This document shows positions 6,767-10,863 of a DNA stretch of 64,000 bases, in pieces. The translations under genes and the position numbers were made by a program. The stretch covers positions 62,001-126,000 of the forward strand of contig JAUHYC010000001.1 in assembly GCA_030426685.1 (NCBI GenBank). Direction: 5' to 3'. The DNA comes from Alphaproteobacteria bacterium. Lineage in GTDB: Bacteria; Pseudomonadota; Alphaproteobacteria; Rhodobacterales; Rhodobacteraceae. How positions within the stretch are numbered: position 1 is the stretch's first letter; every line of letters begins with the position of its first letter. Under the pieces are notes generated by a model, which saw nothing but the letters and a program-made list of their open reading frames with translations, was not told the origin of the DNA and made no database searches.

Positions 6767-6825
6767 ACACGCTGGTCTTGGACGCACCCCCTACATATAT
6801 AAGAACAAATGCGCCTGAGGCCGGG

Positions 6826-7440
6826 ATGACGAAACGCGGATATCACCACGGAAACCTGAAACAAGCTCTGATCGAGGCAGCTTTGTCGCTGATTGAGCAG
6901 AAGGGTCCGACCGGTTTCACCTTGTCCGAAGCTGCCAAGACTGCCGGCGTCACTCCGGCTGCGGTCTATCGGCACTATGAGGGACGCGAAGACTTGATCG
7001 CCGAGGCTGCGCGTCAGGGTTTTGAGATGTTCGCCGATCTGATGCAATTCGCCTATGACAAAGGGCAACCTTCGGCGCTGGCCGCGTTTGAGGCGACAGG
7101 ACGTGCCTATCTGGCCTTTGCTCGCAAGCATCCCGGACACTACATCGCCATGTTTGAGAGCGGGATCTCAGTCAACCGCACGCCGGAACTGGCCCTGGCG
7201 GCCAACCGGGCAAAGAATGTTCTAGAGAAAGCCGCCAGCGATCTGTCACAGCATATTCCGCCAGAGAAACGCCCACCTGCTTCAATGTTCAGCGCCCATA
7301 TCTGGGCAATGAGCCATGGGGTAGTTGAGCTTTACGCGCGTAATACCGGGGCGAGTTCCCCTTTCCCGCCCGAGGATCTGTTGGAATCGGGGATTGGTAT
7401 CTATCTGCGCGGTCTGGGGCTTGTCTCTCAGGACGAGTGA
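6826..7440 (+). CDS. TetR/AcrR-family transcriptional regulator
   Basis: A 204-residue repressor-type protein with the TetR N-terminal helix-turn-helix at about residues 5-55. The family pattern is clear: helix 1 LKQALIEAALSLIEQKG, then FTLSEAAKTAGVTPAAVYRHYEGREDLI. The C-terminal ligand domain resembles the TetR_C/WHG type (YLAFARKHPGHYIAMFESG). The ATG at 6826 is preferred because GAGG lies 8 bases upstream and the recognised domain begins right after it; an in-frame TTG at 6778 would add 16 unlikely residues. No divergent target gene is adjacent; it follows ppk2 on the same strand. Ligand and targets are unknown. Confidence 0.9.
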   Translation: MTKRGYHHGNLKQALIEAALSLIEQKGPTGFTLSEAAKTAGVTPAAVYRHYEGREDLIAEAARQGFEMFADLMQFAYDKGQPSALAAFEATGRAYLAFARKHPGHYIAMFESGISVNRTPELALAANRAKNVLEKAASDLSQHIPPEKRPPASMFSAHIWAMSHGVVELYARNTGASSPFPPEDLLESGIGIYLRGLGLVSQDE

Positions 7441-7446
7441 TATCGG

Positions 7447-8505
7447 TTAAAACACGCGGCTGTGCTTGGGCGTATTCAGGCGTGACGTCACATTGATCAG
7501 GTCCATATGCCCCATGCCTTTGATGTCGACTGGCCCGATATCCGTGATCTGAAACTCGTCAATGAGTGCATATTTCATCTCTTCCGGTGCAACAATCCGC
7601 ATCGGGTTGGCAAAGACCTGCAGGCGTGAGGCGATATTCACCGCCGGGCCAAAGACATCATAGACATATTTCTGAATCCCGACGACCGAGCCCACAGCTG
7701 GACCCATACCCAAACCAATCCGGGCCTGCCATTTATGCGGGTGGCTCTCGTTGCGCCGTTCCAGATAACGCAGGAACCTGACCGCGCAATGAGCGACCGC
7801 CGTGGCATGATCCGGGGTTTCGTCGGGCATTCCCGACACTGCGAGATAAGCATCACCGATGGTCTTGATCCGCTCGCATCCGAATTGCTCGACAATACGG
7901 TCGAAGGCGGTGAAAATGTCATTCAACTCACTCAGCGTCACCGTAGGGTCGGTCTTGGCTGCAAAATCGGTGAACCCGACAAAATCGAGCATGACCACCG
8001 ACACCTGTTCAAACAATTGTGGTGTAACCACGCCGAAAGTCTTGAACTCTTCATATACCGCTTTTGGCATCAGGTTCAGTAGCAGCCGTTCCACCCGCTC
8101 CTTCTCGCGCTCCAATTCACGCGTGTTCCTCTCAACCATGGTTGAGTAGCTGTCGATCATGCTTTCAAGTTCACGGATTCGGGTGATGTTCTGACATTCG
8201 ACCACTAGCACCTGTTCCTCGAGCCCATTGGCAAGTGATATAGCGGTGGCAAAGATCAGCGTTCGGCGTTTGGGTTTGATCTGGAGTTCTACGGAATACC
8301 GCAGGCCGGATTGCTTCACATCCTCCAGCTCTTTCGGATCAAGATCGGGCAGAATGTCTAACAGAGTCTGCCCCTCGGCAGGAGTTCCGAACCATTCCGC
8401 GAACGGGCCGTTGTGAAACACGAATGTCAGATCCGAAGCCCGCAACACCGCCACACCAACGCCAATCGCTCGCAACAGATGTTCGTTAATGGCCAGAATG
8501 CTCAT
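7447..8505 (-). CDS. PAS-like domain adenylate cyclase (class III)
   Basis: This 352-residue protein is predicted to be a soluble signalling enzyme making cAMP. Residues 1-110 look like a PAS sensor domain, and 110-145 form a charged signalling helix. This is followed by RLLLNLMPKAVYEEF, the linker seen in guanylyl/adenylyl cyclases. The catalytic domain (about 165-340) keeps both metal aspartates, Asp174 in VVMLDFVGFT and Asp218 in KTIGDAYLA. It also keeps the base-selecting pair Lys214 and Asp283, which points to ATP rather than GTP, and the catalytic Asn290 and Arg294 in VNIASR. Its start codon overlaps the stop of the upstream globin gene (ATGA), so the two are translationally coupled and globin-linked control of the cyclase is plausible. 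No membrane segments are seen. Confidence 0.9.
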   Translation of the reverse strand: MSILAINEHLLRAIGVGVAVLRASDLTFVFHNGPFAEWFGTPAEGQTLLDILPDLDPKELEDVKQSGLRYSVELQIKPKRRTLIFATAISLANGLEEQVLVVECQNITRIRELESMIDSYSTMVERNTRELEREKERVERLLLNLMPKAVYEEFKTFGVVTPQLFEQVSVVMLDFVGFTDFAAKTDPTVTLSELNDIFTAFDRIVEQFGCERIKTIGDAYLAVSGMPDETPDHATAVAHCAVRFLRYLERRNESHPHKWQARIGLGMGPAVGSVVGIQKYVYDVFGPAVNIASRLQVFANPMRIVAPEEMKYALIDEFQITDIGPVDIKGMGHMDLINVTSRLNTPKHSRVF

Positions 8506-8870
8506 GCAGCGTTCCGGGCCACGATGATGGCGCGTTTATCTTCAATTGCGCCCAATGCCGTGTTGATATCTGATTCAGACATACCGTGGAGCGCCAGTGC
8601 TTCGCCGAACAGCGTCGCCATTTCGTCAAAGTCCGAATGCGAGATGTTCAGATGCCGGTGTACTGCTTCGATCCTGTCATCGCTGAATGAAGCCGGACCG
8701 CCGACCAGAGACGATACAAATTTGGTCTGATGGTCAATCAGACGGGGCAAGTCGATATCATCGAAATAGTCCCCGATCTGGTCGGATTCCAACGCCATTT
8801 CATAGAACGACATCACGACACGGCTGATGGTTTTGAACCCGCCATACTTCTCATAGATCGTCTGACTCAC
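8502..8870 (-). CDS. Truncated hemoglobin, group I type
   Basis: A 122-residue heme protein of the 2/2 globin family. It opens with the classic TIYEKYGGF segment. Helix B has FYEMAL, whose tyrosine is the usual distal ligand-stabilising residue. Helix E has RLIDHQTKFVSSLVGGP, and the proximal histidine is in EAVHRHLNIS. Such proteins bind O2, NO or CO and serve in sensing, NO detoxification or redox work. The GTG at 8870 (protein starting VSQTIYEKYGG) gives the usual family start; an upstream in-frame GTG at 8903 would add 11 hydrophobic residues. Neither has a strong ribosome-binding site. The gene overlaps the adenylate cyclase gene by four bases and is transcribed first. Confidence 0.9.
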   Translation of the reverse strand: MSQTIYEKYGGFKTISRVVMSFYEMALESDQIGDYFDDIDLPRLIDHQTKFVSSLVGGPASFSDDRIEAVHRHLNISHSDFDEMATLFGEALALHGMSESDINTALGAIEDKRAIIVARNAA

Positions 8871-9046
8871 AACACAAAACCGAATGATAATTGGCAATAA
8901 CACTACTAGGTTATATCAAAATGACGGTATTGTTAACTTTTTTGAGCCGTTTGCACGATGGGAAACAGAACAATGCCTCAACGGCATTCAATCGTTTTCA
9001 GTTTTATCCGGAATATTCGCGATCTCTGCCTTGACCCGGGGGCAAA

Positions 9047-9466
9047 TCAATCCGGCGAAGCGAGGCTGCTGAGCTGGTTCGAACACGGGTTGACCTCTGG
9101 AAAAAAGAGCCCGGTATATTCAAACGGCCCTCCCTTCTCAACTGCCAGAACCGCGTTCGAAGACCTCAGAAAAAGGTTCATCAAGTGACCGCGCATCTCT
9201 TCTTCCGAGCCTTTCATGAGGACTAACGAGTGCGGTTTCACTCTAAAATAGACAGATGCAAGGATGTAGTCGCGATACCGCATCTCCTTCAAAGAGGTGA
9301 CGTAATCTTCGACGAAGCCTTGTTCTGTGGCTTGATCGGCAATTTCAGTTCCAAATTCATCTGCCAATTGCGCATGGATCCAGGCCCTGATGCCACTCGA
9401 CAAGGGTATTGCTGCGATCGCGACCAGTGCGGCAGCAGAACCCAATATGGCGCGCCTCGAAACCAT
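9047..9466 (-). CDS. Small Tat-type protein, possible oxidoreductase accessory subunit
   Basis: A 139-residue protein with a twin-arginine-like N-terminus (MVSRRAILGSAAALVAIAAIPL), which suggests export of a folded partner or membrane anchoring. The C-terminal part reads FLRSSNAVLAVEKGGPFEYTG and ends near PCSN, a pattern that recalls the small subunits of membrane-bound FAD sugar/alcohol dehydrogenases. That match is from memory and weak. Its ATG overlaps the stop of the GMC oxidoreductase gene by one base (TGATG). The coupling makes a role as chaperone, Tat escort or electron-transfer subunit of that flavoenzyme likely. No cofactor-binding motif of its own is seen. Confidence 0.65.
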   Translation of the reverse strand: MVSRRAILGSAAALVAIAAIPLSSGIRAWIHAQLADEFGTEIADQATEQGFVEDYVTSLKEMRYRDYILASVYFRVKPHSLVLMKGSEEEMRGHLMNLFLRSSNAVLAVEKGGPFEYTGLFFPEVNPCSNQLSSLASPD

Positions 9467-10863
9467 CAGAGCGACCTCGCAGCGAAAACAGACATGGCCG
9501 ACAATGTCAGCGTGGGGTTTGCTGGCGAACAGGATGGGAATACACCTGAACCCAAACTCAAGACATTCGAAACTTCATGCGTTTTCAGTTCGCGATCGAC
9601 TACACCGGTGTCCTTGGTGCCTCCCATACGGGTCGTCCCAAGTATGTGCGCTTCGGTCGCGACCGGGCCTATATCTTTGATACTCTCGACCTCGACAGGA
9701 ATAGCATCGGCCAGATTGGTCAGCGCATAGTTGATACCGTCTTGCGCGTACTGGGAATACCCGTTCCAGCGTAACAATACTTCGTCATCAACCAAACTCA
9801 CCTGGTTGTCCGGACTTGGCAATTCCTCGGCAATCAGCTTGAGCGTCAGCCGCTCTGTCCAGCGATTTTTTTCAGCTCGCGTCGCTGCCGGAACATTGAA
9901 GTTTTCGATCAGCACCGCCGCACGCTGCGAGCGATCAGCATTGTGATAGAAATGATAACCCTGCCCGGTTATCGACGTTCCTCCGTAGAAATTCTGGATC
10001 GGGGCGTCAATTTCAATGAGGTGCCCGGCCTGCTCGTTCAAATAGCGACCCAGTGCAGGTGCAGTGAATCCGCTTCTCAGCAAAATCGCGGCATTGAAAA
10101 TGGCGTTTGCGCCTAAGGCCACCAAATCCGATTTGATCTCTGACACGCCATCTGATCCAAGGACCTCAACTGATTTTGCGGTTCCGGCCTCGGTGCGAAT
10201 GGCCCGGACTTCGTGGTTGAGCAGAAGATGTACGTTCTCCCGTTCGAAGTTCTGCCGCGCATTCAATATGGTGAACTTGGCGTCGACCGGGCAGGTATGG
10301 CAAATGCCGTTGGCGCAACACAAGCCCCGGCTGCCGCCATTACTTCGTGCAGACGGTGATGGCACCCAAAGATCGCCCGTATTCTGCAAGATTGCGTCGG
10401 ATCGAGAAGGCGCATGTGGCGGAAAGGGAAATGGCTGGCTGCGTGGAAGGATGTGCTCACTACCACCGCCTGCGATCTCCATCACTTGCTCGACCTCAGT
10501 GTAATAAGGCTCGAGTTCTTCGTAGGTTATCAACCAATCCTCTGCCCGATTGTACAGTGTTTTGGTTTGAAAATCCGCCGGAAGGAACCGGGGTGTCTGC
10601 CCCCACCAACAATTCGAGTTTCCACCAAATGCCGATCTGGCAATCCAGGGTTTTTCACTGTTGGACTTGAAACTTTCGTAAGGCAATGGTGTGGCGATCT
10701 GTTCCTCATGGCTGACGAACCCACCTTTTTCGACAACCAGAACGGACAGGTTTCGCGGCAATCCATAGAGAAAGAACATCGCCGCTAAACTGCTTCCGGC
10801 GATAACGATATCCCATTTCCTGTTGCGCGCGTCATCTAATGAGATTTGTTCCATCGCACCCAT
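9466..10863 (-). CDS. GMC-family FAD oxidoreductase
   Basis: A 465-residue flavoprotein of the glucose-methanol-choline oxidoreductase family. The N-terminal FAD strand-turn-helix is DIVIAGSSLAAMFFLYGL at 18-35, an unusual variant in which the canonical GxGxxG glycines are partly replaced. The segment FGGNSNCWWGQTPRFL is where these enzymes contact the flavin. A cysteine-rich stretch CCANGICHTCPVDAK follows, as in several GMC dehydrogenases. The C-terminal catalytic region keeps HILGTTRMGG and GSGVFPSCSPANPTLTLSAM. Substrate is probably an alcohol or sugar; it could be cytoplasmic or exported with the coupled Tat-type protein. It lies 68 bases after the SGNH-like gene on the same strand. In-frame ATGs at 10863 and 10854 compete as starts. 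Confidence 0.85.
   Translation of the reverse strand: MGAMEQISLDDARNRKWDIVIAGSSLAAMFFLYGLPRNLSVLVVEKGGFVSHEEQIATPLPYESFKSNSEKPWIARSAFGGNSNCWWGQTPRFLPADFQTKTLYNRAEDWLITYEELEPYYTEVEQVMEIAGGGSEHILPRSQPFPFPPHAPSRSDAILQNTGDLWVPSPSARSNGGSRGLCCANGICHTCPVDAKFTILNARQNFERENVHLLLNHEVRAIRTEAGTAKSVEVLGSDGVSEIKSDLVALGANAIFNAAILLRSGFTAPALGRYLNEQAGHLIEIDAPIQNFYGGTSITGQGYHFYHNADRSQRAAVLIENFNVPAATRAEKNRWTERLTLKLIAEELPSPDNQVSLVDDEVLLRWNGYSQYAQDGINYALTNLADAIPVEVESIKDIGPVATEAHILGTTRMGGTKDTGVVDRELKTHEVSNVLSLGSGVFPSCSPANPTLTLSAMSVFAARSL

Follow-up and report, generated by a model that had tools for sequence, protein, structure and literature searches.

A truncated globin encoded with a soluble guanylate cyclase-like adenylate cyclase in Alphaproteobacteria: a candidate split heme sensor

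Introduction

Truncated globins are widespread among bacteria, many of them with no settled role. Soluble guanylate cyclase (sGC) has an N-terminal H-NOX domain, followed by PAS, a coiled coil and a class III cyclase domain. In the globin-coupled diguanylate cyclases, a globin reportedly serves as the gas sensor for a nucleotide cyclase, and the globin and the cyclase of HemAC-Lm from Leishmania are also said to lie in the same chain. For the latter enzyme, cAMP production in response to oxygen is described (PMC4534343). Stand-alone H-NOX proteins are described as being usually encoded next to a diguanylate cyclase/phosphodiesterase or a kinase and as acting in trans on these adjacent partners (PMC8738867), so that the first-pass annotation of the DNA discussed here generalizes too far in placing the sensor of all known heme-controlled cyclases within the cyclase chain.

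The window, that is, the whole stretch of 64,000 nucleotides that was analyzed, comes from a genome of the Rhodobacteraceae and contains a pair of genes for a group 1 truncated globin and a class III adenylate cyclase. This pair resembles the stand-alone H-NOX systems in gene adjacency, with the gene of a small, separate, putative heme protein next to that of a candidate signalling partner, and differs from these systems in that the proposed sensor is a 2/2 globin, not an H-NOX fold, and that its partner belongs to the class III adenylate cyclases instead of the GGDEF/EAL proteins. With sGC, the pair appears to share the arrangement of PAS, coiled coil and class III catalytic domain, as judged from a structural match along the chain, but the chain of the cyclase shows no H-NOX match, its substrate residues predict ATP, and the putative heme protein is the product of a separate gene. 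With globin-coupled sensors (HemAC-Lm and the globin-coupled diguanylate cyclases), it shares a globin as the proposed gas sensor for a nucleotide cyclase; those sensors are single-chain fusions of the globin and the output domain, whereas here a group 1 truncated globin occupies a chain of its own, encoded in a separate reading frame. Given the two chains and the lack of H-NOX, the pair is a member of neither the globin-coupled sensors nor the H-NOX systems, although, by analogy, it would work like the H-NOX and HemAC-Lm systems. Among the matches listed from the open-licence PMC literature, titles and abstract openings do not describe a globin–cyclase pair, and the word 'cyclase' is absent from the main text of a paper on the mapping of rhizobial globin genes (PMC4648194).

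The globin–cyclase locus

The globin gene (8502–8870, minus strand) encodes a protein of 122 amino acids with a GTG start, and most of the relatives align from the same position; the cyclase gene (7447–8505, minus strand) encodes 352 amino acids. The stop of the globin shares four bases (ATGA, 8505–8502, minus strand) with the start of the cyclase, the two frames being separate, as is apparent from the reading frames and the alignments of loci and in agreement with the overlap reported in the first-pass annotation. A promoter-like block, TTAACA-N15-TATAAC (8910–8937, minus strand), emerges from an alignment of 20 upstream regions: it is conserved 5' of the globin in close Ruegeria relatives, and the TTAACA part reaches some other genera while the remainder of the block fades. 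The nearest same-strand upstream gene ends 176 bases ahead of the globin, and a TetR-type gene (6778–7440) lies downstream of the pair on the opposite strand. Because of this block, this gap and the opposite orientation of the downstream gene, the globin and the cyclase look like a two-gene transcription unit of their own.

The host genome is Ruegeria-like: among the best 80 of 262 genome relatives, the named organisms with the most similar cyclases belong to Ruegeria. The globin is the sole PF01152 match in the host genome. The same genome contains nine cNMP-binding matches. It also has 16 PF00211 cyclase matches, so that an effect of the pair on cAMP could be redundant. Further upstream in the window, the gene for a GMC-type oxidoreductase (9466–10863, minus strand) shares one base with the start of the gene for a 139-amino acid protein (9047–9466, minus strand) that has a signal-like start with an arginine pair and no Pfam match; these two genes (9047–10863) may encode a periplasmic dehydrogenase pair.

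The globin and its putative heme pocket

The globin matches PF01152 with an E-value of 3.2e-15 and a score of 56.8 bits (curated cut-off, 21), and the closest relatives of known structure are the group 1 truncated hemoglobins of Tetrahymena (3aq5) and Mycobacterium tuberculosis (HbN). The predicted structure (pLDDT 89.5) is a 2/2 fold that superimposes on HbN (1s56) with a Z-score of 19.6 over 119 residues and an rmsd of 1.9. An ungapped alignment with 3aq5, whose residues supply the names of the helix positions, places Tyr23 at B10, Leu44 at E7, His47 at E10, Gln48 at E11 and the proximal His71 at F8. The early assignment of this protein as a group I truncated globin with a proximal histidine and a distal tyrosine is thus borne out. 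Tyr23, His71 and the double glycines Gly10-Gly11 and Gly57-Gly58 are invariant in 22 aligned rows, and Tyr23, His47, Gln48 and His71 are all kept in 118 of 119 loci, the one exception (L228) being a broken gene in which the B10 position is not covered.

Comparison of 44 paired representatives with the 16 nearest unpaired globins reveals a signature in helix E, Asp46-His47-Gln48-Thr49-Lys50 (8721–8735, minus strand). Asp46 and His47 are found in 100% of the paired and none of the 16 unpaired globins, the latter having lysine (nine), methionine (five), arginine (one) or serine (one) at E10; Lys50 occurs in 95% of the paired vs 0% of the unpaired proteins, and Thr49 in 95% vs 6%. Among more distant PF01152 proteins, 2 of 22 have a histidine in the E10 column, in a region where the alignment is doubtful. 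An orphan globin of the paired type (L195, genome G332) keeps Asp46-His47-Gln48, with no cyclase within 1.5 kb. By eye, the frame that adjoins this orphan resembles a Rieske-type oxygenase.

A histidine at E10 is a heme ligand in Synechocystis GlbN. The sixth ligand of the heme in Chlamydomonas THB1, THB2 and THB4 is reported to be a lysine at E10 (PMC7082302), and a globin survey flags histidine or lysine at this position as potentially heme-coordinating (PMC4720485). Judging from its residues, the paired globin probably has a resting heme that is hexacoordinate via His71 (F8) and His47 (E10). The same survey also presents a basic E10 residue as common in truncated globins and as heme-supporting (PMC4720485), and hence His47 need not be a ligand. 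With the group 1 truncated hemoglobins (HbN and those of Tetrahymena, Synechocystis, GlbN, and Chlamydomonas, THB1), the paired globin has in common the fold and the B10, E11 and F8 residues; it differs from them in the paired-specific Asp46–His47 (E10), the threonine and lysine of helix E, and the near-constant linkage to a cyclase.

The cyclase

The cyclase matches PF00211 with an E-value of 2.2e-41 and contains Asp174 and Asp218, Lys214 and Asp283, and Asn290 and Arg294, which we take, following the class III cyclase literature, to be the residues for the metals, the adenine and the transition state, respectively. All six being present, the description of an intact class III cyclase in the first-pass annotation holds, and Lys214 and Asp283 predict ATP as the substrate.

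The AlphaFold model of this protein (mean pLDDT 79, pTM 0.52) shows, in this order, an N-terminal helix, a PAS-like domain, a helix at residues 107–145, a short helix and the catalytic domain. The N-terminal helix and the PAS-like domain comprise residues 1–106 (8188–8505, minus strand); residues 21–110 are modelled as a PAS-like fold with pLDDT of ∼80–89 per block, and the PAS_8 profile scores 18.6 bits, under its cut-off of 21.8. The signalling helix or linker extends over approximately residues 107–159 (8029–8187, minus strand), and the class III catalytic domain, identified by profile and predicted structure, over approximately residues 160–341 (7483–8028, minus strand). The long helix is modelled at low confidence (pLDDT 51–66 per block), so that neither this helix nor the domain placement is certain in the model.

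The top Foldseek match is one bacterial adenylate cyclase (5o5l, 5o5k), with the catalytic domain superimposing on 5o5k at a Z-score of 24.9 and an rmsd of 2.9 over 180 residues. Next come soluble guanylate cyclases, with matches that span 355–406 alignment columns (best E-value, 6e-18). Residues 5–342 of the model align with residues 207–607 of human sGC beta, and the chain-long match (8hbe_B) has a Z-score of 22.1 over 286 residues, with an rmsd of 22 Å that results from hinged domains; the best Z-scores are those of catalytic domains alone. The HNOBA profile scores 18.7 bits in the window cyclase (cut-off, 23.4); among 22 members, 16 match it at E ≤ 0.01. H-NOX gives no match in the 352-amino acid chain at E ≤ 0.1 and is absent from the families matched at E ≤ 0.01 across the 22 cyclase members. 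By prediction, then, the PAS–coiled-coil–catalytic layout of the cyclase is that of soluble guanylate cyclase minus H-NOX. Among 35 intact representatives, the linker (residues 104–165) is on average the most conserved of the four regions compared, with a mean pairwise identity of 0.755 vs 0.615 for the catalytic region, 0.547 for the N-terminal helix region and 0.346 for PAS.

Linkage of the globin and the cyclase across genomes

The first-pass annotation had named unlinked genes in most relatives as an outcome that would refute the possible switch, and in all the full-length relatives that were checked the genes are linked. In a family sample of 295 genomes, a cyclase match at E ≤ 1e-20 was detected in 38. 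Of these, 20 contain near-full-length relatives, at 21 places if a second, diverged copy in G125 is counted. Seventeen of the 38 were set aside as other cyclases because the match is almost wholly to the linker and the catalytic half, and a fragment of 134 residues near a contig end (G240) was left out of the member count. The pair is thus patchy, with 20 of the 295 family genomes containing it; PF01152 is present in 98. The globin is directly upstream of the cyclase, on the same strand, in 22 of 22 rows (the 21 family places and a Novosphingobium plasmid), and the distance from the globin stop to the cyclase start, by alignment, ranges from −11 to +10 and is exactly −4 in 10 of the 22.

A pattern scan of a genome contig collection, of which the best 80 of 262 relatives were examined, together with one viral contig, yielded an upstream globin in 81 of 81 loci and a stop/start overlap of exactly −4 in 77 of the 81, many of which are close relatives; so exact an overlap in related loci implies that the arrangement is far more than chance, and it favours matched synthesis of the two proteins. 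Among 385 genomes of the class, the cyclase was found at E ≤ 1e-45 in 17, including G500 and G320 with in-frame stops in the cyclase, and the globin in 17 of the 17, although these sets of genomes overlap, with G000 and G055 recurring and some genomes entered under both a code and a name. A 349-genome draw from the phylum, an unspecified number of which are from outside the class, contains the cyclase in three genomes, all within the class, of which the only new one (G904) has the globin; no pair outside the class was found in this draw.

In the reverse search, a profile built from the paired globins matched 37 places in 289 class genomes at E ≤ 1e-15. Thirteen of these globins score 124–193 bits, and 12 of the 13 are followed by the cyclase, the exception being the G332 orphan; a truncated globin of G320 (73 bits) adjoins the broken cyclase of that genome. 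The other 23 places score at most 94 bits, and in the 16 that were examined, within ≤1.5 kb, this cyclase was not found.

The globin–cyclase pair is an evolutionary unit. The linkage and the conserved overlap show that the two genes function together and are expressed together, not that their products touch. The mirror-tree correlation of the two proteins (r = 0.74 over 820 distances) is one that shared inheritance alone would give and is therefore not evidence for contact.

On plasmids, the full pair was found only in Novosphingobium pLA3; the search of phages gave one record with a match to the catalytic domain only, and globins of haloarchaeal plasmids are related at 28–39% identity. A viral contig (IMGVR_UViG_3300045789_000719, L166) carries the pair with a divergent histidine kinase upstream; it is either a mobile copy or a stretch of chromosome wrongly listed as viral.

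No fusion of the globin and the cyclase in one chain was found among the loci examined. A 403-amino acid globin frame in L073 was considered and, judging by eye from its composition, looks like a spurious upstream extension; the large frames in L200, L201, L203, L205 and L208 are globin–CheA chains with no cyclase. In these five loci (in genomes G384, G416, G352, G488 and G519), a group 1 truncated globin lies inside CheA-like chemotaxis kinases in the order Hpt–globin–H-kinase_dim, with HATPase and CheW where the stretch is long enough, and the L205 chain includes a second globin stretch as well as a receiver domain; the chains were checked with Pfam in L200, L205 and L208 and by eye in L201 and L203.

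Loss of catalytic residues and a kinase-linked clade

All six catalytic residues are kept in 109 of the 119 loci; two loci have only the K214R replacement, seven are degenerate and one is broken. The degenerate loci (L062, L078, L079, L082, L083, L084 and L085) are seven separate representatives among the 45 that remain at 80% cyclase identity, and all seven retain the globin. Given this loss with the globin kept, it is unlikely that all members signal through cAMP. The possible gas-to-cAMP switch envisaged in the first-pass annotation is supported in part, by the linkage, and its cAMP output probably does not extend to the whole family.

In L062, L078, L079, L082 and L083, a histidine kinase starts within ∼30 bases of the cyclase end or overlaps it. 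All five kinases look intact, with the HELNNP phospho-acceptor and G-box-like motifs (the L079 kinase, the longest frame of which begins inside the cyclase, was read by hand), and PAS, HisKA and HATPase_c were confirmed by Pfam in the three that were scanned (L062, L078 and L082). A scan with a kinase profile built from four of the five clade kinases and one more detected no directly downstream kinase at the other 114 loci, which include L084 and L085, where catalytic residues are lost as well; at 8 of the 114 (seven intact loci and L085), a kinase gene that points the opposite way is located within 3.1 kb upstream.

In a tree of 41 rows, which omits the long, short or broken rows L084, L229, L222 and L228, the five kinase-linked members group as a single clade (SH-aLRT 99.7) that lies within a set of intact members; being one clade, they amount to a single evolutionary event (n ∼1). 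Novosphingobium pentaromativorans US6-1 is a representative of this pseudo-cyclase lineage. In a 44-row tree that includes L084, L222 and L229, two changes are required to account for the degenerate group. Set against seven intact sisters hand-picked from the tree, the five degenerate members have a linker identity of 0.86 vs 0.847 and a catalytic identity of 0.559 vs 0.672, at globin identities of 0.587 vs 0.581. Near the pair in the kinase-linked clade are genes for OsmC, one or two FAD oxidoreductases and what is presumably a cysteine-synthase-like protein, assigned by a similarity cluster and a motif; some of these neighbours are also found beside the intact L073, L074 and L080. Whether the degenerate cyclase is kept within a genus was examined in four genera of one or two genomes each; the two second genomes, one of them 62% complete, gave no match. 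G125 has two pairs, and in the second one (L084), the cyclase, at ∼35% identity, has lost several catalytic residues while the globin keeps all pocket residues.

Discussion

The gene overlap and the joint travel of the two genes in many bacteria suggest that the globin switches the cyclase as a separate subunit, and the linkage in all full-length relatives checked makes a heme subunit acting in trans a well-motivated proposal. The globin would accordingly be the regulatory heme subunit of one split sensor, a reading to which we assign a probability of roughly 0.58. Heme binding, coordination by His47, physical contact, the ligand, cAMP control and the direction of the effect are what we infer in the following scheme. 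The globin, made first in the transcript as a separate subunit, would bind heme and would be held on the PAS/linker region of the sGC-like cyclase without H-NOX; the resting heme would probably be six-coordinate through His71 and His47; O2, NO, CO or a redox change of the iron would displace His47 and shift helix E; and this shift would reach the cyclase dimer by way of PAS and the signalling helix and so change cAMP synthesis. Because the cyclase has, by prediction, the sGC layout without the H-NOX domain, the globin may stand in for H-NOX; PAS could also be the actual sensor. The more elaborate version, an undescribed alphaproteobacterial split sensor in which a bis-histidyl group 1 globin replaces H-NOX and the dead cyclase of one lineage is an adaptor to a histidine kinase, is tentative and, on the whole, somewhat unlikely.

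Compatible with the split sensor, and overlapping with it, is the possibility that the cyclase fold serves chiefly as a structural relay. In this view, cAMP is the ancestral signal of the module, the PAS/linker is the conserved partner of the globin, and one clade gave up catalysis, so that its globin and pseudo-cyclase would now feed the kinase whose gene follows. The five loci of the well-supported clade, with their lost catalytic residues, the linker that was held while the catalytic domain diverged, and the description of HnoD, an inactive cyclase domain, as part of H-NOX pathways (PMC8738867) all point in this direction, but the correlation comes down to one evolutionary event, L084 and L085 lost residues with no kinase directly downstream, and catalysis, the loss of which is known from sequence alone, looks intact in most members, including the one in the window. 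A relay of this kind is, therefore, a serious contender that nevertheless falls short of an even chance.

The globin could instead be an enzyme, with NO dioxygenase, peroxide or redox activity, that is co-expressed with the cyclase in a shared stress response and makes no contact with it, PAS or metabolism controlling the cyclase. Its distal set, Tyr B10, Leu E7 and Gln E11, is the same as that of HbN, a NO dioxygenase. The OsmC and FAD oxidoreductase genes near the kinase-linked clade, and partly near the three intact loci, amount to a redox-like setting, and a truncated cyanoglobin of Legionella is reported to share an operon with a ferredoxin reductase (PMC3820574). Yet a free-standing enzyme should frequently be found apart from the cyclase, as only one of the 13 high-scoring globins is; such an enzyme would have no need for the paired-specific Asp46 and His47 or for a stop/start overlap with a regulator; no obvious globin reductase adjoins the pair in the window, where the GMC oxidoreductase is two genes upstream; and the globin is retained beside catalytically degenerate cyclases. 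An enzymatic role is, on balance, unlikely. Simple inheritance of gene order, with a translationally coupled two-gene unit hitch-hiking neutrally and without a common function, draws on the fact that the sample consists largely of close relatives (119 loci reduce to 45 representatives), but in numerous families of the class the pair has stayed together amid differing neighbours, and a neutral order would not persist in this manner; this explanation is strongly disfavoured and has a very low probability.

As for the split sensor, what is new here is the signature of the paired globins, the predicted sGC-like layout without H-NOX, and the loss of catalytic residues with the globin and the linker kept. 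A globin subfamily that is tied tightly to one signalling enzyme has a directly testable sensor function, and the family offers a natural series of an intact cyclase, a pseudo-cyclase and a pseudo-cyclase with a kinase. If the proposal is true, the pair would stand as the equivalent, in bacteria and in two proteins, of soluble guanylate cyclase, with a heme protein of another fold in the sensor role; on the more elaborate and less likely version, the output would, in one lineage, have switched within one module from a second messenger to a phosphorelay.
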